From Clostridia bacterium (GTDB lineage: Bacteria; Bacillota; Clostridia; Oscillospirales; QAKW01), in NCBI GenBank assembly GCA_017937065.1, contig JAGBEI010000031.1, positions 124,001 to 188,000 on the forward strand: a DNA stretch of 64,000 nt, in the 5' to 3' direction. This document shows, piece after piece, positions 7,757 through 60,218 of the stretch. Position 1 is the stretch's first letter, and each line of letters opens with the position of its first letter. The notes beneath the pieces were generated by a model that saw only the letters and a program-made list of their open reading frames with translations, searched no databases and was not told where the DNA came from. The translations under genes and the position numbers were made by a program.

Positions 7757-9334
7757 ATGATAGACATTTTAAGAACACCCGACGACATAAGAATATATTG
7801 CGACAGGGACAATGTCGACACTGTTGTTACGACAGAGATTGTCGGAAGGAAAATGCAGGTTAAAGTAACGGCGACTGAATCAAAGCCTAAAATGATATGC
7901 CTGAGATGGAAATGCAAGATAACAGAGCCGACACGTGTGATGGGTGACCGTTGGGAGCGCTCATACGGTGACATGTCGTGGAACTCTTTAAATGGCGAAA
8001 TCTTTATGCCGTGGTATTTTTTAGCGTCTAACGGTAAAACCACAGTAGGCTGCGGCGTCATGGTTCGTCCGTCATCCTATGTATGCTTTCAGTGTGATGC
8101 AAACGGTGTAAGCGCGTGGTTTGACGTGCGCTGCGGCGGTGTCGGCGTTGATCTCGGCGGCCGTGAGCTTTTGGCAGGTGAGATAGTCTGTGAAAAATAT
8201 GAGGGTATCAGCGAGATAGATGCAGCAACAAAATTCTGCTCTGTCATGTGTGAAGATCCGATATTTCCGCGCGAAGCCGTTTACGGCTCAAACAACTGGT
8301 ACTACGCCTACGGAAAGTCAAGCTATGAGGAGATAACAGAGGATGCCGCAGTCATTGCGCAGCTTGCAAAAGGCAACAGCACCCCTCCGTTTATGGTAAT
8401 AGATGACGGTTGGCAGAAAAACCCCGTGGAAGGTCCGTGGATACCCAACGAAAGATACGGCGATATGTCCGGGATCACCGCTGAATTTAAAAATATAGGC
8501 GTCCGTCCGGGTATATGGTTCAGACCGCTTCACAACACCGAGCTTGAAACAGCACATCCCGATTGGTGTATATGTCATAAAGAGGGTAAAAAAGCGTATC
8601 TTGACCCGTCACATCCCGATGTTAAAGAGTACATCAAAAAAACAATCGAGGATATCAAAGGTTGGGGCTTTGAACTTATAAAACATGACTATTCAACCTT
8701 TGATATGTTCGGTGACTACGGAAATAAGCTCAACGGCTGTATCACCAACTATAAGGGCTGGTCGTTCTACGATAAAACAAAGACAAGCGCGCAGATAACT
8801 CTTGATTTTTATAAGCTCATCCGTGAGGCAGCAGGGGAAATGTACATAATCGGCTGCAATACCGTAAGTCACCTCTGCGCAGGTCTTGTCGAGATAAACA
8901 GAATAGGCAATGACACAAGCGGAATGCAGTGGAACACAACCCGCGCAAACGGCGTTAATACACTTGCTTTCAGAATGTGCCAGAACAACACGTTTTACAA
9001 GATAGATGCAGATTGTGTCGGTCTTATGGAAAAAAATATCGATTGGCGGCTCAACCGTCAGTGGCTGGATCTTCTTGCAAGGAGCGGGTCACCGCTTTTT
9101 GTTTCAATGCAGCCGTCACAGATAACAGATGCCATAGCAGATGACCTGAAAAAAGCGTTTGAAATATCCTCGCGTCAGACGGATGTTGCAAAACCTATGG
9201 ACTGGCTTTATAACAACACTCCGCAGCTGTGGGAAATTAACGGTGAAACTGTTGTTTACGACTTTGTTATGGACGATTACCCGCTGCCTGCCAAGGAAAT
9301 TTATGCAACACTCTCACCATCGCTTATGTTTTAA
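7757..9334 (+). CDS. GH36-like alpha-galactosidase (clan GH-D)
   Basis: This 525-residue glycoside hydrolase has an N-terminal beta-rich domain (about 1-170) followed by a TIM barrel. The barrel shows DDGWQ at 216-220, the strand ending in ELIKHDYS with Asp311 in the nucleophile position, and NRIGNDTSG with Asp386 in the acid/base position. These are the landmarks of GH36/GH27 enzymes, which release alpha-linked galactose from raffinose-type or galactomannan substrates. There is no signal peptide, so it acts in the cytoplasm on imported sugars. It begins 41 bases after gdhA with only a weak SD and no terminator between, so co-transcription is possible. The exact sugar specificity cannot be read from the sequence. 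Confidence 0.82.
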   Translation: MIDILRTPDDIRIYCDRDNVDTVVTTEIVGRKMQVKVTATESKPKMICLRWKCKITEPTRVMGDRWERSYGDMSWNSLNGEIFMPWYFLASNGKTTVGCGVMVRPSSYVCFQCDANGVSAWFDVRCGGVGVDLGGRELLAGEIVCEKYEGISEIDAATKFCSVMCEDPIFPREAVYGSNNWYYAYGKSSYEEITEDAAVIAQLAKGNSTPPFMVIDDGWQKNPVEGPWIPNERYGDMSGITAEFKNIGVRPGIWFRPLHNTELETAHPDWCICHKEGKKAYLDPSHPDVKEYIKKTIEDIKGWGFELIKHDYSTFDMFGDYGNKLNGCITNYKGWSFYDKTKTSAQITLDFYKLIREAAGEMYIIGCNTVSHLCAGLVEINRIGNDTSGMQWNTTRANGVNTLAFRMCQNNTFYKIDADCVGLMEKNIDWRLNRQWLDLLARSGSPLFVSMQPSQITDAIADDLKKAFEISSRQTDVAKPMDWLYNNTPQLWEINGETVVYDFVMDDYPLPAKEIYATLSPSLMF

Positions 9335-9866
9335 TGCGCCGGCAGTTACCGAATAACCGAAGCTGATGATGCCGCGCCGGTTGTTGAAGAAAAGCTAAAC
9401 TCTCGGCAAAAACTTTTCAGATTGTTTGGACTTTTCCGATGAAGCTTAAAAGCAAGATTGCTTTTAATACGTAATTTTTCGGTTTACAGGTCTCAGAGTT
9501 CAATCATAACAATAATTTGCCATATGCAAAAAGTATATCCGCATATGGTTTGCCCGCTAAAATCAAAGGCACATTCAACGGAGTTATCTTCCGAAGGCTG
9601 TGCCTTTTTGTCATTTTATATATATTTTGATGCTTTTCTGTCTTGCAAGCAAGGCAGAAAAACATCGTCAACACTATCATATATTTGCCTGCCGATGCGG
9701 ACTTTTTTCCGGCAGTAAACGAATTGTAATATCGTATAAAATGATTGTTTTTAAGAAATTATCCGTATCGTTTCCCCCACATTCCGACGTGTTGGGTCGT
9801 TTAACGCCGGAAGCGCAACACAAGGTGATTTACAATCGCCCTGCACCGCTTTAAACAATCCTTATA
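9335..9866. other. 530-bp intergenic region with several hairpins and no convincing gene
   Basis: Short open frames here lack SD sites and protein-like composition. The region holds a 10-bp inverted repeat (TTAAAAGCAA, 9446-9467), probably the end of the galactosidase transcript. It also has a CCATATGC/GCATATGG pair near 9519-9548 and an AAAGGCACA/TGTGCCTTT hairpin ending in T-residues at 9565-9609. The last could terminate a small RNA, but no promoter or known RNA family is evident. Confidence 0.45.
9446..9467. terminator. possible terminator after the galactosidase gene
   Basis: TTAAAAGCAA and TTGCTTTTAA form a perfect 10-bp stem with a 2-base gap, followed a few bases later by a T-run. 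The arm is AT-rich, so its strength is doubtful. Confidence 0.4.
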
Positions 9867-9895
9867 TTGCCCGATAAAAAACCTTATGGTATAAT
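9867..9895 (+). promoter_or_regulatory. promoter of the bceRS genes
   Basis: TTGCCC (9867-9872), a 17-base spacer and a perfect TATAAT (9890-9895) lie just before the response regulator gene. Confidence 0.75.
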
Positions 9896-9915
9896 AGTAA
9901 AAAGAGGTGACAATA

Positions 9916-10587
9916 TTGTACAGACTGTTAATTGTAGAGGACGACCGCGGAATTGCAGAAGCTATCGCACAGCAGGCACACACATGGGAGCTTGAAACAA
10001 AGTGTGTTTCAAATTTCCGCGATGTTATGAAGGACTTTGCCGAGTTCGACCCGCATATCGTGCTTATGGATATCACCCTGCCGTTTTTCAACGGATATCA
10101 CTGGTGCAGTCAGATACGGCTTAATTCCTCCGTGCCTATTATTTTTATTTCTTCCGCCTCGGACAACATGAACATTGTAATGGCAATGAATATGGGCGCA
10201 GACGACTTTATTGCAAAGCCGTTTGACGGCAGTGTTCTCATGGCTAAGGTTCAGGCAATGCTGCGAAGAACCTATGATTATGCCGCGTCCGTTCCGGTAC
10301 TGGAACACCGCGGAGCAATACTTAATACAGGCGACAACACGCTAACCTTTGAAAATCAAAAAATATCACTAACCAAAAATGAATACCGCATACTTTTGGC
10401 ATTGATGGAGAATAAATGTCAGGTTGTCAGCCGTGAAAAGCTGATGGAGCGTCTTTGGGAAACAGACAGCTTTGTAGACGAAAATACGCTGACCGTCAAC
10501 ATTAACCGTCTGCGCAAAAAGCTTGAATCGGCGGGGCTTTGCGGTTTCATTTCCACCAAATTCGGCGTGGGATATATCATAGAGTAG
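9916..10587 (+). CDS. bceR: BceR/GraR-type OmpR-family response regulator
   Basis: This 223-residue regulator has a receiver domain with acidic pair Asp9/Asp10, phosphoacceptor Asp52 in VLMDITLP, and conserved lysine in the FIAKPF loop. A C-terminal OmpR winged helix contains VSREKLMERLWE and TVNINRLRKKL. TTG at 9916 is preferred because AGAGGTGA lies five to six bases upstream; the GTG at 9907 is part of that SD. The gene sits before a histidine kinase and a Bce-type ABC transporter, so it very probably activates that transporter in response to cell-wall-active peptides. Symbol is by analogy with Bacillus; the ligand is unknown. Confidence 0.88.
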   Translation: MYRLLIVEDDRGIAEAIAQQAHTWELETKCVSNFRDVMKDFAEFDPHIVLMDITLPFFNGYHWCSQIRLNSSVPIIFISSASDNMNIVMAMNMGADDFIAKPFDGSVLMAKVQAMLRRTYDYAASVPVLEHRGAILNTGDNTLTFENQKISLTKNEYRILLALMENKCQVVSREKLMERLWETDSFVDENTLTVNINRLRKKLESAGLCGFISTKFGVGYIIE

Positions 10588-10595
10588 GTGTAAAT

Positions 10596-11585
10596 ATGAA
10601 ATTATTTTTCAGATATCTGAAAAACAGACGTAAATTTATCCTTGTCTCCTGCTTTTTCACAGTGATATTTCTGGCAGCATTTATAATGTACCGCCTGCCT
10701 TTCGGCGCTGTACTGTATCCTGCGCTGCTGTGTTTATTTTTCGGTACGCTGATTGTCATGCTTGACTACAAAAGCGTTGCAAAAAAGCATGCGCTGCTGA
10801 CTGACATGAAAAAGCTGACCATAGACCTTATCAGCTTTCTTCCCGACTGTCAAAGCATCGAAGAGGAGGATTTCAAGGACATCATTGCCAATCTCCAGCT
10901 TGAACATGCGCAGCTTTTAACGCGCATGAATACACGCTACAACGACATGGTGGACTATTACACGGTCTGGGCGCATCAAATAAAGACGCCGATTTCCTCC
11001 ATGCGCCTTACCCTTCAAAGCGACGATTCGGAGCTGTCGCGCAAGCTGTCGGGTGAGCTTTTCAGAATAGAGCAGTACGTCGAAATGGTGCTGGCATTTT
11101 TAAGACTCGGCTCAGACAGCACGGATTACGTATTTAAGGAGTATGACCTTGATTCAATAATAAAATCCTGCGTCAAAAAATTTTCAAGCGAATTTATCGG
11201 CAGAAAAATACGCCTTGAGTACAAGCCGGTCGGCATCAAAATCGTAACGGACGAAAAATGGCTGTCCTTTGTAATTGAGCAGCTGCTGTCCAACGCACTT
11301 AAATATACTGAAAACGGCTCGGTCAAAATATATATTAAACCGAAAAATATTCTCTGCATAGAGGACACCGGCATCGGAATAGCGCCCGAGGATTTACCGC
11401 GCATCTTTGAAAACGGATTTACCGGCTATAACGGCAGAAGCGACAAAAAAGCCACGGGCATCGGACTTTACCTTTGCAAACGCATATGCAATAACCTTAA
11501 AATTAACATCAGCGCCGAATCAGCGCCTGACTGCGGAACGGTAATATCCCTGACTCTTGACCAAAAAAAGCTTACAACGGAATAA
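10596..11585 (+). CDS. bceS: BceS/GraS-type intramembrane-sensing histidine kinase
   Basis: This 329-residue kinase has two close transmembrane helices at about residues 13-32 and 37-55 with almost no extracellular loop, the hallmark of intramembrane-sensing kinases. These kinases do not bind the drug themselves but read the transporter. The phosphoacceptor region is WAHQIKTPISSM, followed by an HATPase domain with N-box EQLLSNALKY, G1 box EDTGIGIAPEDL and GIGLYLCK. ATG at 10596 has SD GTAGGTG, and it starts 8 bases after bceR. It would phosphorylate the adjacent BceR. Confidence 0.9.
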   Translation: MKLFFRYLKNRRKFILVSCFFTVIFLAAFIMYRLPFGAVLYPALLCLFFGTLIVMLDYKSVAKKHALLTDMKKLTIDLISFLPDCQSIEEEDFKDIIANLQLEHAQLLTRMNTRYNDMVDYYTVWAHQIKTPISSMRLTLQSDDSELSRKLSGELFRIEQYVEMVLAFLRLGSDSTDYVFKEYDLDSIIKSCVKKFSSEFIGRKIRLEYKPVGIKIVTDEKWLSFVIEQLLSNALKYTENGSVKIYIKPKNILCIEDTGIGIAPEDLPRIFENGFTGYNGRSDKKATGIGLYLCKRICNNLKINISAESAPDCGTVISLTLDQKKLTTE

Positions 11586-14539: not shown

Positions 14540-14568
14540 AAACCGCGCGGTCTCAAGCCGCGCGGTTT
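14540..14568. terminator. strong bidirectional terminator
   Basis: AAACCGCGCGG and its reverse complement surround a 7-base loop between two convergent genes. It includes the last codons and stop of the minus-strand membrane protein gene. Confidence 0.9.
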
Positions 14569-16058
14569 GTTATTGCGTCATCATAGGGCCAAAACTGAAA
14601 AGTACCGCTTGTCTTATAAAATACATCCGGAGTAAAAAACACCTCCGTATTTTGCCTTGACTGAGCCGCCGTTACAACAGGGTAACAAAACCTGCTTGTC
14701 TGGTGTACGTATTCAATACTGTCGGCAAATGAAGAGCCTATCGTATTCTGCATAGCTGTATAGGATATGTAGCCGCGGTGATTTTCACCGCTGTCGGGCA
14801 TTGAAAACTCTGCGGTTATATTCCCTCTGCCGAGCATCGACGCGGTATCGCCGAGAAAATGATAGGGCGCGGCATACGATGTGCCGGCCTTGTCGTAAAG
14901 CATCTGCCCTAAAATATCATATGACTCCATTGTACGGGGATTATACGGTGTCATCCAGCTGCCGGTAAAAGAGTATGCCGTACAGACAATCACAGCATCC
15001 GTGCCGCAAAAGCCGGGATTTGACGTCCAGCTGAAATGATGAAAAATTCTCCACTGTCTGTTGTCCCGCGAAAGCTCGACGGCAACCGATGTGATATGCA
15101 GGTTTTCGGTATCGTAAATTACGGTTTCACGATATCCTGTTTCGGTTTTCTCCGTTACTTTCCTTCCTTTATTACCGGGATAATCGTCCTGCTTGACAAC
15201 AACACGCAAAGCACCTGCACAGTCTCTTAGGTCCTGCGCCTGAAGGTCGCCGAGCACATTCTCGGGAAAGCCCAAGCCCGCAAGATGGGTACTGATTTTT
15301 TCAAGTTCTGCGTCACCGCCGTTTGACGGCGGCTGCCATGTCTGCCAGTCGGCTTTGTAACCGTTCAAAAACAAATAACAGCACGCAACGCCGACAACAA
15401 CAGCTGCCGCAGCGAAAGATACTACCACAGCGTCGCTGATTCTGCTTTGAGATACCGTCAAATTAAAGTTCTTATCTGCAAGCTCCCGATACAGCTTATA
15501 CATACTGCGAATAACAAAGCCCAATAATATAATAAAAACAATCAGAAAAACAGAATTTATCACCGGATAAACCGCAAAAAACACCAGCAGCACATACCAG
15601 ATAACAAACGCCGCCGCACCGCCGGCGTGCTTCTCAATTCCCGCTTTTTCCTGAAGGTCATAAATGCCCGCCGTCTGACAGCATAATATAATAAATTTCA
15701 GCACAGCGGAAATGACCTTCAGCACCGTAAAGGCAGATGAGCTTTCAAATGCGGCTCTCAGTACCGAAGCGTTTATGATCACATAGAAAATCAAAAGAGC
15801 TGTCTGAGCTGCCGAAATGAAAAAGCAGATTTTAAACGCACGGCTTTCGTTTTTCAAAGCTCTGAAGCCGAGCATCATCAAAATGACGCCGATAAGCGGC
15901 AGAATAATATCAAAAATCCAAAAATTCAGAATAATTACAAACAGCACTTCGCCCGCCAAAATACGGCTGACAGCTTTTTTAAATCGCGTATCCTCCTTAT
16001 ACGAAGAACAATCTGACAGGCTGTTTTCCGGCATTAAATCAAATGTTTTGCCGCTCAC
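14553..16058 (-). CDS. membrane protein with large extracytoplasmic C-terminal domain, unknown family
   Basis: This 501-residue protein has about six hydrophobic segments in residues 30-240. From about residue 240 it is soluble and beta-like in composition with scattered cysteines and aromatic residues, so it is probably exposed outside. GTG at 16058 is preferred over TTG at 16073 because GGGGGTGA lies five bases upstream of the GTG. The first 25 residues are polar and cytoplasmic. The gene stands between the Bce module and the surface-glycosylation genes and shares a terminator with bceB. I recognise no family and no catalytic motif. The surface location and neighbour suggest an envelope role, which is only inference. 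Confidence 0.75.
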   Translation of the reverse strand: MSGKTFDLMPENSLSDCSSYKEDTRFKKAVSRILAGEVLFVIILNFWIFDIILPLIGVILMMLGFRALKNESRAFKICFFISAAQTALLIFYVIINASVLRAAFESSSAFTVLKVISAVLKFIILCCQTAGIYDLQEKAGIEKHAGGAAAFVIWYVLLVFFAVYPVINSVFLIVFIILLGFVIRSMYKLYRELADKNFNLTVSQSRISDAVVVSFAAAAVVVGVACCYLFLNGYKADWQTWQPPSNGGDAELEKISTHLAGLGFPENVLGDLQAQDLRDCAGALRVVVKQDDYPGNKGRKVTEKTETGYRETVIYDTENLHITSVAVELSRDNRQWRIFHHFSWTSNPGFCGTDAVIVCTAYSFTGSWMTPYNPRTMESYDILGQMLYDKAGTSYAAPYHFLGDTASMLGRGNITAEFSMPDSGENHRGYISYTAMQNTIGSSFADSIEYVHQTSRFCYPVVTAAQSRQNTEVFFTPDVFYKTSGTFQFWPYDDAITNRAA

Positions 16059-16117
16059 AAAAATCACCCCCAAATGATTTTGCAGCTTGACGCAATATTC
16101 TGCGTCGGCTTTCTCAG

Positions 16118-17074
16118 CTATTTTGCAGCGTCCTCAGATGTACCGTTATTTTCAAGCTTTTCCTTGATTATATAAACAGGTCTTGACTTTGATTCCGAAT
16201 AAATCTTTGCAAGATACTGACCGATGATTCCGATACACAAAAGCTGTATTCCCGACAGAAACAGAATAAGCGATGCAAGAGTCGGAAAGCCCGCAACGGG
16301 ATCGCCGAACAGCAGTGTTTTCACAATGACAAACATCATTATTATAATAGCAATAACAAACAGCAAAAGCCCTACAAAAGATGAAAGTATAAGCGGCTTG
16401 TCCGAAAATGCGACAATACCGTTTACGGCATACGCTGTCAGCTTCCAAAAGCTCCATTTCGAGCTGCCGCTGAGACGGAATTCTACATCATAGGGCATAT
16501 AATATACATTAAAGCCTATCCATGAAAATATGCCCTTGGAAAAGCGGCATTTTTCGGGCATTGCCAAAACTGCGTCCACCATTTTGCGGCTGAGAACACG
16601 AAAATCACTCGCGGAACGGTAAAATTCCACCTCTGTCATTTTATTAATCAGCTTATAAAAGCAGTTTTTGAAAAATGACAGGACTTTGCCCTCGTTACGC
16701 TCACGCTGGTACGCCGCAACTCCGTCATATTCGGGATTTTTCCTGATAATATCAAGCATTTCAAGTATATATTTCGGATTCTGCTGAAGGTCGGCATCTA
16801 TTATGGCGGTATATTCACCGTCTGCATTCTCAAGCCCCGCAAGCAGCGCAGCCTCTTTTCCGAAATTACGCGAAAAATTTACGACTTTTATTTTACAGAC
16901 TTTCTCCGCTGTCAGCTTTTTCAGCTCGCCGACAGTATTATCCTTACTGCCGTCGTTGACAAAAATAAGCTCAGTATCACCGATAATGTCGGAAAGCACC
17001 GAAACCGTCTTGTCAAAAAACGGGCGGATATTACTCTGCTCATTATAGCAAGGCACAACAACAGACAGAAACAT
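16118..17074 (-). CDS. GtrB/CsbB-like polyprenyl-phosphate sugar transferase (GT2)
   Basis: This 318-residue glycosyltransferase has a GT-A fold with VVPCYNEQSNI at the start, the metal-binding IIDADLQQNP (DxD-type) near residue 93, and two C-terminal transmembrane helices around residues 230-290. Members move a sugar from a nucleotide donor to undecaprenyl phosphate on the cytoplasmic face. ATG at 17074 starts 2 bases after the end of the upstream YfhO-GtrA gene and has SD AAAGGGGG inside that gene, so the two are coupled. Together they would make, flip and use a lipid-linked sugar. The sugar is unknown. Confidence 0.88.
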   Translation of the reverse strand: MFLSVVVPCYNEQSNIRPFFDKTVSVLSDIIGDTELIFVNDGSKDNTVGELKKLTAEKVCKIKVVNFSRNFGKEAALLAGLENADGEYTAIIDADLQQNPKYILEMLDIIRKNPEYDGVAAYQRERNEGKVLSFFKNCFYKLINKMTEVEFYRSASDFRVLSRKMVDAVLAMPEKCRFSKGIFSWIGFNVYYMPYDVEFRLSGSSKWSFWKLTAYAVNGIVAFSDKPLILSSFVGLLLFVIAIIIMMFVIVKTLLFGDPVAGFPTLASLILFLSGIQLLCIGIIGQYLAKIYSESKSRPVYIIKEKLENNGTSEDAAK

Positions 17075-17076
17075 GC

Positions 17077-20013
17077 CTAATCCCCCTTTGAATTTGCTTT
17101 ATTCTTAAATACAAGAAATTTACTTATTATATAGTTGGCAATAAGCACTATAACCTGCGTTTCCAGCTTTGCGGCAAGCTCATTCTGCCCGATAATATCA
17201 TATAGCAGAAATACTCCGCCTACCTCTATTATCATTGTCACGCCCCTTGCCCCGACAAACTTTAAAAACTCGGCAGACACCGCCGAAAACGACGGGCACT
17301 TGGAGCGGAAAACAAATATTTTGTTGACAACATATGCAAACAGAATAGCGCAGATGACCGAAATCACATTGCTGACATTTACATTGACATCAGCGACTTT
17401 GCAAAGCAAGGTAAATACAACAAGATTTACAAGAGTTGTGGCAACACCCGCCGCAAGATACCGCACGGCACGGCTGTTTAAAAAGACCGCAAGCCTGTCC
17501 CGCAGCTTTTTATTATAGGTCACGACTGCCGCCGCAGCTATCAAAAGCAGACCAAGCAGGGTGACAAGTATCCCGAATTTCAGAAACGGTATTGTATATT
17601 CGGCGCTGACTTCATTCAGTCCGGCAGAGAGCGGCAAAACGGTCAGCCCGTCGCCCAAAGACAACGGCGTAACCTCCCTGCCGTTAATTTCAAACGTCCA
17701 GTTATCCGAAACCGGCACCGGCAGCACGACAAAGCCGCCGTTTTCAGCCTCGATGCTGCCGTATATCCTGTCCCCGTCATATGTCAGTGTCTCCACCGCA
17801 TTTTCAGACAGCCTACCTGAAATATCAGAAAGCTTGTCAAGATTCAGCGCGTAAAAATGGGGATTTTGAAACTCTTCGGGGTTTTCCGTAATAGCTCTTA
17901 CAGTCTGATTTTTTCCGCTCTCGGTGGGCACGTAAAATATATTGGGTGTCAGCCACGCGGCATAATCGAAAGCCTCATTTTTTCCTATTTTTATTTTTGT
18001 ACCCGAATAAAACCCGTCTAATATAAAATCGCCGTAAACCGCAAAATTACCCTTGGGAACATTAATCGTATATATAACGCCGTCCTGCGTTTGCTTTTTT
18101 GTTGCGGAGAGCTTTGTATACAGCTCGGTTTTTTCTCCGATGAGCTGACTGTAAAGCTCGTTTTGAAATTCAAACTGGTTTTTCGCCTTATATTCGGTCT
18201 GTTTAAAGGAGTCTACAACATATGTCATAGGAAGACAATACGGATTTTCATACACGGTGTTTGAGTTATATCCCGAAATATCTTTGACAGGCTTTAAGCC
18301 GTTTATCGGCGTATCGGACAGTATATATTTCACGCCCAGAAGTGAATCGGCAGCAACAACAGACGTGTTCACAACCGTGATACACTCGCCCTCCGTACGG
18401 TAGCCGAGTCTGTCAATTAATTTCAGCTGCATATTATCGGGACATGAGGTATAGCTTGCATTTGAGGCAAAGCCGTAGGCAAGCGAATCGTTATAGGACG
18501 CATCTGTTCTTCGCGTAATATTTGAAATTCGGTAAAAGCCGCTGTCGTAATTTTTAATTTCGTCTATCTGCTTTTGCTGATTTATCATGTACTCGCGGTT
18601 ATATTCGTTGTAGTTTGAACCGCCCTGAAGCACAATCCAAATTTTTGCGTTAAATCCGAGCTCAACAAGCAAAAGACAAACTGCCGCTGCGGAAAAAATC
18701 CGCTTTTTCGGGACAAAGCACAGCACTGCCGCCGTGAGCAGAATAAAGAACACCGTATAATAAGTGTGCTTTAAATCGTTGGTCTGACGTATATATTCAG
18801 ACATCAGAAGAATTGATGAAAACGCTAATGCAGACACCGTTATATACTTTGTTCTGTCCGGCACCTGAACGGTAAAAAAGTACGCCGCAATAAAAATCAG
18901 AGTAAAGATAATCGTAAAGGCATGACGTATCCAATAGCTGCCGACATCACGCAAAAGAGAAAATACCATATAAAGCGGAAACCAGTAAACGCTCATAAGC
19001 ATAATAAGTAGTAATATTCCGAAAATAAGCTTATGCTTTCTTCCTACACCTTTGGCAGCAAAAAATGCTATTACTCCGATGAGAACAATACTTCCGCAAA
19101 AAAGCGCAACATTACCGTAGCTGCTGCCTGCACCGATTTGCCAGCCGCTTACAACATTGAAAACATTGCCTGAAAAGACATTTGTCAAAGAGGCGTTTGT
19201 CGTCTTGCCGCCGAGCATAGACACCACTGTCGGCAAAAACAGACCGGCACTCAAAAACAGTGCCAGCACCATTGAACTGCCGTACAGCACAAGCGACCAA
19301 AGCATGTCCTTAATGCAAAACTTACCGCCGTCCTTATCAACACATTTGAGGACATACTCAAACGCAAACCAAAGGATTGACAGAAGACAGCACATACCTG
19401 CACTGTACCAGTTGAAAATAATGGCAAGCCCTGCCGATACAGACAGAAGTATAATATTTTTGTTGTTTACAGCCTTATAAACGCCCAGAATAATCAGCGG
19501 CAGCATATATACCCCGTCAAGCCACATAACATTATCTGCCTGAGTGAGGTTGTACTGCATAAAGGCATAGCTCAGAGACAGCATCAGCGCATAAACGGGT
19601 TTCAGCTTATTTTCAAATCTGAAACGCAGAAAAATCCCCATTGTCAGCGCACACATGCTGATTTTCAGCGCCGCAATGAGATTAAAAAACGTGATTATAT
19701 TCGCCTTGGAGAAGAATACCAAAAGCAAATTAAACGGGGACGAAAGATAGTAGCTGAAAATAGCAAGCGTGTCTCCGCCGAGTGTGTCGGAAAACGTATA
19801 GCTTATGCTGTTTTTTCCCGCCATTACATCCTTCAGGTACGCAAAAAAGTCAAGATACTGAAGCTCGGCGTCATCGGTTGCAAGCGTTCCCGCACCGAAC
19901 GGCGCTATATCATATATATAATAAAACGTAAAAATACAGACAAATGTTATAAAAAATGCAAGAATCCCTACCGCATATCTGTTATTTTTAAACCCGTTTT
20001 TTATATAAATCAC
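17077..20013 (-). CDS. YfhO-like GT-C membrane glycosyltransferase fused to a GtrA-like flippase domain
   Basis: This 978-residue protein is multi-pass. The first part, to about residue 480, carries about twelve helices with early acidic motif LATDDAELQY, as in YfhO-type GT-C enzymes. An exposed domain follows to about residue 800. After one more helix, the last 140 residues form four helices of the GtrA family (RYLAAGVATTLVNLVVF, then NKIFVFRS and SKFLVFKN). In Bacillus and Listeria the GT2, GtrA and YfhO steps are separate proteins that glycosylate teichoic acids; here two are joined. The annotated start is GTG at 20013, which overlaps the SD; ATA at 20004 lies at ideal SD spacing and could be the true start. 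Confidence 0.85.
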   Translation of the reverse strand: MIYIKNGFKNNRYAVGILAFFITFVCIFTFYYIYDIAPFGAGTLATDDAELQYLDFFAYLKDVMAGKNSISYTFSDTLGGDTLAIFSYYLSSPFNLLLVFFSKANIITFFNLIAALKISMCALTMGIFLRFRFENKLKPVYALMLSLSYAFMQYNLTQADNVMWLDGVYMLPLIILGVYKAVNNKNIILLSVSAGLAIIFNWYSAGMCCLLSILWFAFEYVLKCVDKDGGKFCIKDMLWSLVLYGSSMVLALFLSAGLFLPTVVSMLGGKTTNASLTNVFSGNVFNVVSGWQIGAGSSYGNVALFCGSIVLIGVIAFFAAKGVGRKHKLIFGILLLIMLMSVYWFPLYMVFSLLRDVGSYWIRHAFTIIFTLIFIAAYFFTVQVPDRTKYITVSALAFSSILLMSEYIRQTNDLKHTYYTVFFILLTAAVLCFVPKKRIFSAAAVCLLLVELGFNAKIWIVLQGGSNYNEYNREYMINQQKQIDEIKNYDSGFYRISNITRRTDASYNDSLAYGFASNASYTSCPDNMQLKLIDRLGYRTEGECITVVNTSVVAADSLLGVKYILSDTPINGLKPVKDISGYNSNTVYENPYCLPMTYVVDSFKQTEYKAKNQFEFQNELYSQLIGEKTELYTKLSATKKQTQDGVIYTINVPKGNFAVYGDFILDGFYSGTKIKIGKNEAFDYAAWLTPNIFYVPTESGKNQTVRAITENPEEFQNPHFYALNLDKLSDISGRLSENAVETLTYDGDRIYGSIEAENGGFVVLPVPVSDNWTFEINGREVTPLSLGDGLTVLPLSAGLNEVSAEYTIPFLKFGILVTLLGLLLIAAAAVVTYNKKLRDRLAVFLNSRAVRYLAAGVATTLVNLVVFTLLCKVADVNVNVSNVISVICAILFAYVVNKIFVFRSKCPSFSAVSAEFLKFVGARGVTMIIEVGGVFLLYDIIGQNELAAKLETQVIVLIANYIISKFLVFKNKANSKGD

Positions 20014-20105
20014 CTCTTGGCTGCAAAATACAAATTTTTAATATTATATCACGCAATATCTTTTATAACAAGATATATATTTAAAAAAACGTATCAAAAC
20101 GCAGA

Positions 20106-23563: not shown

Positions 23564-25636
23564 TTATCTGCGGCGCTTATAGATTAACGCAAACAAAATC
23601 CCCGCAGCAAGAACGCCTGCCGATATTACAAGATATATTAAAGATGAAAACGCGCTGTCAGCACTATTCTCGGGCTGTAACGTCTGCTCCGTTTTATCAG
23701 GATTTTGCATCGATCCGCCGGAATTTCCCGGCATTTGGGGAATTCCGTTGCCGTTTGTGCTGTTTTCATCGGTGATTTCAGACGGCACCTGCATTTGCCC
23801 GCCGCTATTCCCCGGCGTTTGGGGAATTCCGTTGCCGTTTGTGCCGTTTTCATCGGTGATTTCAGACGGCACCTGCATTTGCCCCGATAAAGAATCCGAT
23901 GAATCAGTTTCGTCTCCGTCTGCCTGAGCGCTATCGTTTAAAGCCTCCGAAGCTACCTCGCCGTTGATTTCCGTGTCCGGTATCTGCATATTCTCACCGG
24001 GCATTTTCATTCCCTGACCCATCGAATTATTCATCAAACCCATATCACTTATCTGTATATCTCCGGCATCAATCAGGGTACTGCTCTCCTGAGTGTCCCA
24101 AGTCGAGCCGATTGTGCCCTCAAGCTGTCCGCTGATGCTTTCGGCACGAAGAATACAGAATTTTTTCAGTGTTGATATGCCCGTTTCATATTCCTCGTAG
24201 GTGCAGAACTTGGTCGGGTCTTTTTCTATATAACCGGAAATCATTTCCGACACATTATCAATCATTTCCTCAAAATATCCGCTGTCGAAATACTGTGATA
24301 TAAACTCGGAAAAATACTGATGATACAGACTTGTATATTCCTCGTCTGCGAAAATCCACGCAATCATCGGTCTGTCTTCGACATTCCCGCCGGAAACGGG
24401 GGAATCAATCGGATAATTAACCAGATTTTCAGCGCCGACCGCCGACTCAAACCCTCCGAAGGCAAGGTTATAATCCCAAGGAATCATCTGCATCTGCCCG
24501 TCTTTTTCGTAGAGATAATAATTATGAATCATCGAGCCTGTATAGCTGTCAAAATTCAAAACAAAGTTATGCACCACAAAATATTGGATTACAGCTTCAA
24601 TATCTACGGTGTCATAAAGCTCTTCACCGTTTGACAATTTCTTCAGGGCTTCAATCAGGCGTGTTTTGTCACCGTCTGATATATCGGTCTTTGCATTATC
24701 AAAAATATTTGAATAGCTGTCAAATTCATCGTCAATATATTCGAGCAGCACATCGTCACTGCCGTTTGTCATACCGCCGCGACCGAAAGTATTGTCTGAA
24801 TTATCGGCAAAGCTATCACCGCTATTTTTACCGGGCGGTGTCATACCGCCGGGCATCTGTGCATCCGGTCTGCTGCCCTGCTGCATATCGCCGTTATTGA
24901 TATCCGGCATTTGCATAGGCATCGATTCGGCACTGCTGCCGTCGGTATTGTCCGAATCGGCTTCATTTAAGAAGTTATCCATATCAAAGCCTTTGCCGTT
25001 GCCGCGTCCGCCGCCCATGCTCTGGCTGTCGGGCTTATAAAGATTTCCGTAGTCATTCCCGTAATTTCTTTGCAAAAACGATTCCTCTACGCCTTCTACC
25101 GCAAGATAAAGTCCCCAATCCTCGCCGTTTACGGTAATATACACATAACTGCAAAGAGGAGAAGCAACGCCCATATCATCCATCATCCGATAGCAAAGAT
25201 AGTCTTTCATATAGGTGTTATCCTGAATAATGTTGTTAAGGCACAGCTTATCCAATCCGTAATAGGTAATTGCGCTGTCAAAATGATCAAATTCAATTTT
25301 AAAGCTGTATCGGTTATTTCCGTAAGACTCGACCTGCATCAAAGAGGTATTGCCTTTTCCGCGAATAGCAACATTTTTAAATGCGTCACTGTCTATCACA
25401 ACGGTGCAGGCATAATATTCCTCGTTTTTACAATTTGATATAAATTCGTCCCAGTCATCCATGATTATATCAATGGTATGCACCGCAGACGTATCAAACA
25501 GCTTGCCTTCATATCCCATTACTGCGGACGCCTTTTGAACACCAAGGCTCTCGGCATTCATGAAAAGAACCGTCAGAACAAGCGTGACGGCAAGAACAAC
25601 ACAGCAAATCCTATCAAAATGCTTATGTGTTGACAT
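23564..25636 (-). CDS. CotH-family protein, secreted or membrane anchored
   Basis: This 690-residue protein has an N-terminal signal/anchor helix (residues 10-28), a CotH domain with IRGKGNTSL and the DYLCYRMMDDMGVASP and GLYLAVEGVEESFLQ blocks, and the later MIPWDYNLAFGG motif (probable metal and ATP residues). A long Asn/Gly/Pro/Met-rich region follows, then a C-terminal transmembrane helix with an RRR stop-transfer end. CotH proteins are protein kinases on spore coats, but many non-spore relatives are extracellular and linked to VTC/DUF4956 genes as here. ATG at 25636 is chosen over GTG at 25639 by SD spacing (AGGAGG plus 6). It is the last gene of a three-gene cluster. Confidence 0.88.
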   Translation of the reverse strand: MSTHKHFDRICCVVLAVTLVLTVLFMNAESLGVQKASAVMGYEGKLFDTSAVHTIDIIMDDWDEFISNCKNEEYYACTVVIDSDAFKNVAIRGKGNTSLMQVESYGNNRYSFKIEFDHFDSAITYYGLDKLCLNNIIQDNTYMKDYLCYRMMDDMGVASPLCSYVYITVNGEDWGLYLAVEGVEESFLQRNYGNDYGNLYKPDSQSMGGGRGNGKGFDMDNFLNEADSDNTDGSSAESMPMQMPDINNGDMQQGSRPDAQMPGGMTPPGKNSGDSFADNSDNTFGRGGMTNGSDDVLLEYIDDEFDSYSNIFDNAKTDISDGDKTRLIEALKKLSNGEELYDTVDIEAVIQYFVVHNFVLNFDSYTGSMIHNYYLYEKDGQMQMIPWDYNLAFGGFESAVGAENLVNYPIDSPVSGGNVEDRPMIAWIFADEEYTSLYHQYFSEFISQYFDSGYFEEMIDNVSEMISGYIEKDPTKFCTYEEYETGISTLKKFCILRAESISGQLEGTIGSTWDTQESSTLIDAGDIQISDMGLMNNSMGQGMKMPGENMQIPDTEINGEVASEALNDSAQADGDETDSSDSLSGQMQVPSEITDENGTNGNGIPQTPGNSGGQMQVPSEITDENSTNGNGIPQMPGNSGGSMQNPDKTEQTLQPENSADSAFSSLIYLVISAGVLAAGILFALIYKRRR
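23715..23882 (-). repeat. two tandem 84-bp repeats inside the CotH gene
   Basis: A block encoding a 28-residue unit with QMQVPSEITDEN and GTNGNGIP occurs twice in tandem with few base changes. It lies in the low-complexity stalk before the C-terminal membrane helix. Such repeats change copy number easily and set stalk length. Confidence 0.85.
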
Positions 25637-25647
25637 CACGCACCTCC

Positions 25648-59900: not shown

Positions 59901-60218
59901 ATTTTCAGCGCTAAAGCAGCAGCAGGCACAAGGCTTGGCGACGGAATTAAGACACTCGGCAAAATAAGAAAGGAAAGACTTGTCAGCGACAGCGAGCTTG
60001 ACAGACTTATAGACTTTACGCGGCGGAAAATATACGATACGGGGGTATCGGTTATGTCGGGAAACGTCACTGTATCGCCTATTGACGACAACAGCGTCAG
60101 CGCATGCGCTTACTGCGATTACGGCGATATCTGCAAAGTAAGCAGAAATCCCGAATGCAGACGGAAGTTAGAGCCGCTTCCGGACGGATTTTTGGAAAAG
60201 GAGGATTTACGGTCATGA
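56994..60218 (+). CDS. addB: AddB subunit of the AddAB helicase-nuclease
   Basis: This 1074-residue subunit has Walker A GRAGTGKTH at the N-terminus, a UvrD-like inactive helicase region and a C-terminal RecB-type nuclease with IIDYKSGSQ. Cysteine Cys in FIGCPFRFF plus CAYCDYGDIC at the end form the known [4Fe-4S] site. With AddA it unwinds and trims broken DNA ends up to a Chi site to load RecA. The end overlaps addA as ATGA. Confidence 0.96.
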   Translation: MVNIYYGRAGTGKTHALENEARRLLKEGMRVFFVVPEQLTISREYSFNETELQGVQVQSFSRLSNTVFRLLGGTAKKLPDSAMNTAALYRAVKEVYQSLSFYKSTALSHGFISKLSSAFAEFDTCRISLESIEAIPQDSIPPSTLLKYRDMFLIYRRFKQLWEGEYKAPGDDITLAAAMLENNDIFNDAVFMFDGFYGFTAQQLELISQLMSQASGCFFAFTTDLESELFQTVSKEVRRIEAMCKRQDIPCTHIKTDGVQRRLTAPALRFIESSAAQAPTLTHPNEKYANDPGLTVYCAKNSGEELNFIACKIKNDVLNGKYRYRDIAVLSPDSESLSPLAAAVFAKHGVPAFTDIKKSLLSMPLTAMVLSAAEAACDGLNYENVFSFLKTGLAGLSFDDISILENYVRMWKIKGGGWLREKWTQSPSGISSGIRDCADNDSRLLHINELKNKATAPLIRFSENIKKAHGCEDMLRAVCGLFDDLNVSDALLSRARYFESTGELHLSDEYTRIYEIFIQMLDSINEIFGNMKISPDEFYDILSVCAGSVTVSSRPACTDEIIFSGLGRVRTENVKCIYICRMNDGFIPKTPSDNDLITDADKRLFAKYGITTSMDFLQSAAREKFDFYSALTSASKELVLSYSTFEITGEELLKSEFLESIQRLTGTEELIYEKLPPEFHLVSIAGASDLAARLKNPRLTKEVYKAGGIAQIQKTENDRLSDDIVYGLYSKNLRLSFSGIEEFIGCPFRFFIDRGLKARKNETVEMNPANIGTFIHHGLERLLSGEFDLEGDISAHIDTISDDYKNSVLKDCTGSSKRWDKLFLRAKGALSGAANSVVKEIHGSDYKPFDFEIDISRYTPPAQLPGGCTLTLVGSIDRVDILERQDGRFAKIIDYKSGSQDFSLKKIYNGLSMQLPIYAGAVKSRFPDIKIAAMYYLKVGVPDINLTDKNGIDSEQYLEKTEQYYKRDGIFSAKAAAGTRLGDGIKTLGKIRKERLVSDSELDRLIDFTRRKIYDTGVSVMSGNVTVSPIDDNSVSACAYCDYGDICKVSRNPECRRKLEPLPDGFLEKEDLRS

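Follow-up and report, generated by a model that had tools for sequence, protein, structure and literature searches.

The window analysed here, a stretch of 64,000 nucleotides from a draft Clostridia genome, encodes a YfhO-type membrane transferase and a GtrA-type domain in a single polypeptide, directly followed by the gene of a polyprenyl-phosphate glycosyltransferase of the GT2 family. The domains assigned to lipid-sugar flipping and to sugar transfer lie on one chain with a short linker between them, an arrangement that is conserved and has recurred. We consider it quite likely, on family models and a predicted fold, that two proteins here make up a version of the known three-component transmembrane glycosylation system. 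All the component families are already known; we found no paper describing a YfhO/GtrA join in the open-licence PMC text. The join suggests that the flip and transfer steps work as one machine.

The fused protein and its GT2 partner

The preliminary description of this DNA had placed YfhO and GtrA in one polypeptide, with the GT2 gene coupled 2 bases downstream, both within 16118-20013. Indeed, the fused gene is a single frame for 978 residues in which both Pfam domains score above their cut-offs, the ATG of the GT2 gene (17074) lies 2 bases from its TAG stop (17077-17079), and these coordinates span both genes. In the contigs of the source genome (a 1.91 Mb draft in 31 contigs, 99.7% complete) the YfhO and GtrA halves are not separated by any stop and belong to the same 986-codon open frame. 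The Pfam YfhO profile (PF09586) matches residues 19-645 with 393.3 bits against a cut-off of 28.5, and a second stretch reaches the end of the profile (coverage 1-640, plus 714-835 in the genome search). About 19 residues separate the YfhO match from that of GtrA_DPMS_TM (PF04138), which covers residues 851-969 and the complete profile (1-117 of 117) with 77.5 bits against a cut-off of 26.1. The usual GtrA is a small stand-alone protein of 3-4 helices; here it is the terminal domain of a 978-residue protein. The domain is classed as GtrA and the whole protein is not, and the family model does not demand a separate chain. That the C-terminal helices group with GtrA, as had been proposed, is found with Pfam, in the GtrA tree and in the alignment.

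A fold model of the fused protein (mean pLDDT 61.5, pTM 0.44, 9 alignment rows) predicts a membrane part rich in helices that extends to around residue 460, followed by an alpha/beta domain (about 495-806), a helix at 811-833, a short helix, and four helices at 848-968. When residues 1-391 were compared with solved structures using VIA-align, Z scores of 13-16 were obtained to the GT-C structures of oligosaccharyltransferase (OST), AftD and PglB, the neighbours being AftD, STT3, PglB and ArnT. Asp48, just after the first membrane helix, is a candidate for the catalytic Asp of GT-C enzymes. The linker is basic and hence, by the positive-inside rule, probably cytosolic. Topology work on Shigella GtrA reportedly places both of its termini on the cytosolic side, so that fusion at either GtrA end, as observed below, would fit. 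A search of PDB sequences with the fused protein gave a single match (E 0.086), which we take as chance.

The GT2 protein has a Pfam score of 99.2 bits. Its best match among solved structures is the GtrB sll0501 (5ekp, E 9.9e-75), to which it aligns end to end over residues 3-305, and hydrophobic C-terminal stretches are present in its own sequence. A genome-wide search found one YfhO, two GtrA and one full-length CsbB-type GT2, four further GT2 matches being partial. Among the open reading frames of the window, no third gene follows the GT2 gene within the two-gene unit.

Recurrence and origins of the join

The same YfhO-GtrA join, with the GT2 gene next to it, is found in the congeneric genomes G003 and G001 at 58% identity (query 8-972 and 24-972); in this genus set of four genomes, including that of the window, G002 (86% complete) gave no match. 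The matching public records L048 and L049 are from uncultured Clostridia. Over the 394 genomes of the order to which the window belongs, YfhO-GtrA was seen solely in this genus among the matches listed. A Lachnospiraceae metagenome-assembled genome (MAG) carries YfhO-GtrA at 39% identity with a GT2 gene downstream (L050) and holds both orders, one gene each. Genome G874 (locus L094), of another family, has the YfhO-GtrA join with a different YfhO subfamily. Finally, in the family of G614, with 299 genomes covered, at least 22 encode GtrA within a frame 968-1176 residues long: 20 are GtrA-YfhO, one is YfhO-GtrA (G874), and one (G984) was set aside, being two in-frame genes split by a TAG. Fusions are present in at least 21 of the 299 genomes.

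A survey of such fusions, as the preliminary description had suggested, gives a set of 26 loci, 21 GtrA-YfhO and 5 YfhO-GtrA, from the genus of the window, the L050 MAG and the G614 family. Throughout this set, 14-31 residues separate the YfhO match from the GtrA match. A GT2 gene directly adjoins the GtrA end in all 5 YfhO-GtrA loci (downstream) and in 4 of the 21 GtrA-YfhO loci (upstream). That the fusion is unique to the window is ruled out by these further loci, 21 of the GtrA-YfhO order among them.

Origins were examined on a YfhO tree of 51 rows, six divergent rows (L033, L099, L042, L014, L039 and L101) having been dropped beforehand; for the approximately unbiased (AU) tests two unfused tandem YfhO copies were also dropped. 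On this tree, fused against free requires 7 changes; for the free label, branches with good support make at least 6 unavoidable. Trees holding all fused rows together are rejected by the AU test (p 3.0e-5), as are those holding together the YfhO-GtrA rows (p 1.8e-5) or the GtrA-YfhO rows (p 9.2e-4); one origin for the window genus and L050 is compatible with the data (p 0.63). One ancient fusion is therefore ruled out. The two orders require at least two joins; the total of independent joins cannot be read from the tree, whose changes could be gains as well as losses. At least four separately placed groups carry the join, which is found in both orders.

How little a join requires is shown by L051 (Lacrimispora; 7878-10901) and L052 (1109-4132), where YfhO and GtrA lie in frame with one TGA between them. 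The GtrA of these two loci belongs to a distant clade, without the residues equivalent to R95 and K121 of Listeria GtcA. At L096 (3922-7449), GtrA and YfhO are in frame with one TAG between. Such pairs could be a single step from fusion, or could be joined by readthrough. Separate genes are common in related systems.

Other long GtrA frames proved to be of different kinds. Those of G026 (769), G354 (513) and G109 (493) have no YfhO in frame; they overlap frames on the opposite strand and look spurious. The 901-residue frame of G374 (L056 5223-7925) is not a YfhO fusion: it consists of an N-terminal GtrA and a part with no Pfam match, is followed by a GtrB-type GT2, and is perhaps a second kind of GtrA fusion. 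The 683-residue protein of G794 (L100 2251-4299) combines GNAT, Acyl_transf_3 and GtrA domains and is an acyltransferase-GtrA.

Conservation of the GtrA domain and surroundings of the locus

Eight residues of Listeria GtcA have been mutated (A65, N69, V73, F74, F91, R95, K121 and N132), and the loss of R95 or N132 abolishes glycosylation of both lipoteichoic acid (LTA) and wall teichoic acid (WTA), according to the portion of PMC7389260 available. The GtrA domain of the window has all eight, at 893, 897, 901, 902, 919, 923, 949 and 960, with a constant offset of 828, as mapped by motif and spacing against the positions as published. F74, F91, R95, K121 and N132 are retained in 26/26 fused GtrA rows. 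The free GtrA rows (n=31, distant subfamilies included) retain R95 in 22 cases, K121 in 24 and F91 in 26. The second GtrA of the genome has a Tyr at the F91 position and a Cys at the R95 position, and the fused domain is therefore the better flippase candidate for the pathway.

Between G003 and G001, GtrA and the linker show 0.13 nonsynonymous (dN) and 1.13 synonymous (dS) changes per site, with a dN/dS of about 0.12, and selection on the fused GtrA is purifying. Between the window and G003, with dS saturated or nearly so, dN is 0.09 for GT2, 0.22 for the linker and GtrA, and 0.36 for YfhO. At the DNA level, the YfhO parts of G003 and G001 are 99% identical (L035 4898-7849 versus L036 1736-4591) and the GtrA and GT2 parts 78%. 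The YfhO core thus seems to have been exchanged between the two species, or to have been misassembled. Together, the dN gradient and the apparent YfhO exchange suggest a constant lipid-sugar and a changing acceptor.

In G003, YfhO genes with and without GtrA stand in tandem (L035 4898-10569), identical over about 2.2 kb and divergent at both ends only. Gene conversion, recent duplication or the handling of repeats by the assembler could each account for this. These genes have no ATG, GTG or TTG start where one is expected (L035 7815-7862 and 10540-10600), and a Shine-Dalgarno-like sequence precedes ATT/ATA codons, so non-canonical starts are possible. One may compare position 20013 of the window, where the GTG listed as the start of the YfhO-GtrA gene sits inside the Shine-Dalgarno-like AAGAGGTGA.

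The features of the locus are collected in Table 1. The promoter-like site is to be read against the background of the region, in which 16 such sites were found and 9.5 are expected from shuffles.

Table 1. Coordinates in the window of the two-gene unit and its features
Feature	Position	Strand	Description or basis
YfhO-GtrA fusion gene	17077..20013	-	978 residues, single uninterrupted frame
YfhO part (about residues 17-837)	17503..19965	-	GT-C membrane bundle, outer alpha/beta domain and one membrane helix (predicted); Pfam PF09586, fold model, structural neighbours
Asp48	19870..19872	-	Asp in 98% of 57 YfhO rows, close behind the first membrane helix; candidate catalytic residue
Final membrane helix of YfhO (residues 811-833, modelled)	17515..17583	-	fold model
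Basic linker, residues 834-850, probably cytosolic	17464..17514	-	fold model, sequence
GtrA domain, residues 851-969, four helices	17107..17463	-	Pfam, fold model, alignment
GtrB/CsbB/PgfS-type polyprenyl-phosphate glycosyltransferase (GT2), 318 residues	16118..17074	-	family models, solved GtrB
Promoter-like TTGTTA-N17-TATAAT, TG before the second hexamer	20043..20071	-	ahead of both genes; consensus match only

The GT2 gene is closely followed, at 14553-16073 on the minus strand, by a gene for a 506-residue protein whose N-terminal half is hydrophobic and which has no match in Pfam; no counterpart was seen beside the fused gene in G003. A 691-residue protein with a CotH kinase domain is encoded near the locus (23564-25639, minus strand). 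Farther away, two listed frames of 1074 and 1212 residues on the plus strand overlap by 115 bases (60104-60218).

Proposed mechanism and its alternatives

In the scheme drawn for these families, the GT2 enzyme makes a C55-P-sugar inside the cell, GtrA moves the lipid-sugar and the GT-C protein transfers the sugar outside (PMC8035078, in part). At the present locus, judging from its family, the GT2 would transfer one sugar unit from its nucleotide-activated form to undecaprenyl phosphate at the cytoplasmic face. The four-helix GtrA domain, by its family and conserved residues, would carry the lipid-sugar to the outer face, where the GT-C part of YfhO, by family and fold, would move the sugar from the lipid to an envelope acceptor. 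The roles given in the preliminary description (lipid-sugar maker, flippase and GT-C transferase) agree with the family models, the fold model and the retention of all the mutated GtcA residues.

The CsbB-GtcA-YfhO systems of B. subtilis, S. aureus and L. monocytogenes, which act on LTA or WTA, share with this locus the same three families, the presumed order of steps and the GtcA residues with their spacing. They consist, however, of three separate proteins, with one GtcA for several pairs; Listeria GtcA and L. lactis CflA serve several pathways (both from excerpts of PMC8035078). Here the flippase lies within the transferase. The Pgf system of S. mutans (PgfS, PgfM1, PgfE and PgfM2) likewise combines a GT2 with YfhO-like membrane proteins and provides the nearest NCBIfam models for both genes, and neither GtrA nor a flippase is named in the available text on it (PMC5856776, 0 occurrences). 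In contrast to Pgf, no epimerase gene stands beside our pair, and the scores are far below the equivalog cut-offs. The dolichyl-phosphate mannose synthase 5mlz/5mm1, which we take to be that of P. furiosus, also combines a glycosyltransferase with a four-helix domain of GtrA type in one chain and is a weak structural match; there the partner is the GT2 that makes the lipid-sugar, whereas here it is the GT-C protein that uses it. Finally, the YfhO part can be likened, by description, to the YfhO-annotated 'component 27' of Durairaj 2023, which has a GT-C relation to STT3/PglB and a median length of 665 residues; GtrA has 0 occurrences in the text available of that paper (PMC10584680).

What the join would most likely bring is a 1:1 pairing of the flippase with a transferase of its own, which would keep the carrier lipid from being trapped as unligated lipid-sugar. 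In B. subtilis, the loss of YfhO traps undecaprenyl phosphate-linked N-acetylglucosamine (UndP-GlcNAc; PMC11081497, in part), which would provide a reason for the coupling. The preliminary description had taken the fusion to imply that flipping and transfer are linked. Physically they are, on one chain with the short gap given above; we infer in addition a direct hand-over between the two steps, and it is this functional coupling, in its strict form, that the unfused YfhO copies speak against.

Several observations weigh against the mechanism proposed here. An unfused YfhO copy lies beside the fused one in G003 (directly upstream) and in G874 (gene order YfhO-GtrA, GT2, YfhO); the fused flippase is therefore not necessarily exclusive to its own transferase and may serve more than one. 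No GT2 gene is present in the stretch fetched around 17 of the 21 GtrA-YfhO loci. The fold model is weak, and so is the match of its GtrA part to the membrane domain of dolichyl-phosphate mannose synthase (Z 7.9, rmsd 9.8), in a Z range flagged by the tool as possible chance for helical bundles. Moreover, the flippase role of GtrA is itself unsettled, the evidence on mycobacterial Rv3789 being conflicting (PMC7389260, in part).

As debated for Rv3789, the GtrA domain could instead be a membrane anchor or dock tying the GT2 to YfhO. The constant position of adjacent GT2 genes at the GtrA end would suit this role. Nevertheless, we find it improbable: the GT2 aligns end to end with GtrB and has hydrophobic C-terminal stretches of its own, most GtrA-YfhO loci have no adjoining GT2 to be anchored, and the R95 and N132 needed for teichoic acid glycosylation in Listeria are invariant in the fused rows. 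Somewhat less doubtful is a join without functional gain, where the loss of a stop codon would have merged two independently folding proteins and left their activities unchanged. The pairs only one stop apart at L051/L052 and L096, the frequency of separate-gene systems and the extra unfused YfhO copies would fit such a history. It accounts less well for the recurrence in both orders and in separately placed groups, and for a join kept across 39-58% identity and in so many genomes of one family. An error of assembly or sequencing is a different matter. The genome is a draft, and repeats such as the identical tandem copies of G003 can mislead assemblers; yet the join is also found in G003, G001, L050 and L094, at 39-58% identity or with another YfhO subfamily, and its junction lies outside the identical stretch of G003. 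These four loci rule out a frameshift or assembly join, which we consider next to impossible.

The nature of the acceptor is a separate issue. It could be a surface protein, as in a Pgf-like system, rather than a teichoic acid-type polymer. Among NCBIfam models, PgfS scores highest for the GT2 (277.2 bits) and PgfM2 for the YfhO part (126.7 bits), and the one GT2 with two YfhO proteins of G874 recalls PgfM1 and PgfM2 in the S. mutans pgf operon (PMC5856776, in part). Both matches, however, are far below the equivalog cut-offs of 500 and 1500, and the unit has no third gene. Furthermore, four sulfatase-family proteins of the genome show a weak LtaS similarity (26-105 bits, for an equivalog cut-off of 970), which makes an LTA-like polymer possible. 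A protein acceptor appears less likely than not.

Returning to the two-protein form of the glycosylation system, a stronger proposal can be made, which we advance tentatively and rate as possible, somewhat short of an even chance. The fused protein may be a self-contained flip-and-transfer enzyme, in which the lipid-sugar would pass from GtrA to the YfhO active site outside the outer-leaflet pool. Such enzymes would have been built several times, in both orders, against the trapping of undecaprenyl phosphate, with a conserved donor side (GT2 and GtrA) and an acceptor-facing YfhO core that diverges fastest and is swapped between species.

The join touches two open questions, whether GtrA is a flippase or a scaffold, and how a shared carrier lipid escapes trapping. 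A natural single chain, occurring in either order and fixing the ratio at 1:1, speaks directly, at the genomic level, for the flippase and the GT-C transferase belonging together. The fusion also offers one purified protein for reconstitution and cryo-electron microscopy. Recurrent fusions in separately placed groups are also of use in assigning unpaired GtrA and YfhO genes of Clostridia, a class in which, judging from the open-licence PMC text, such systems appear unstudied.

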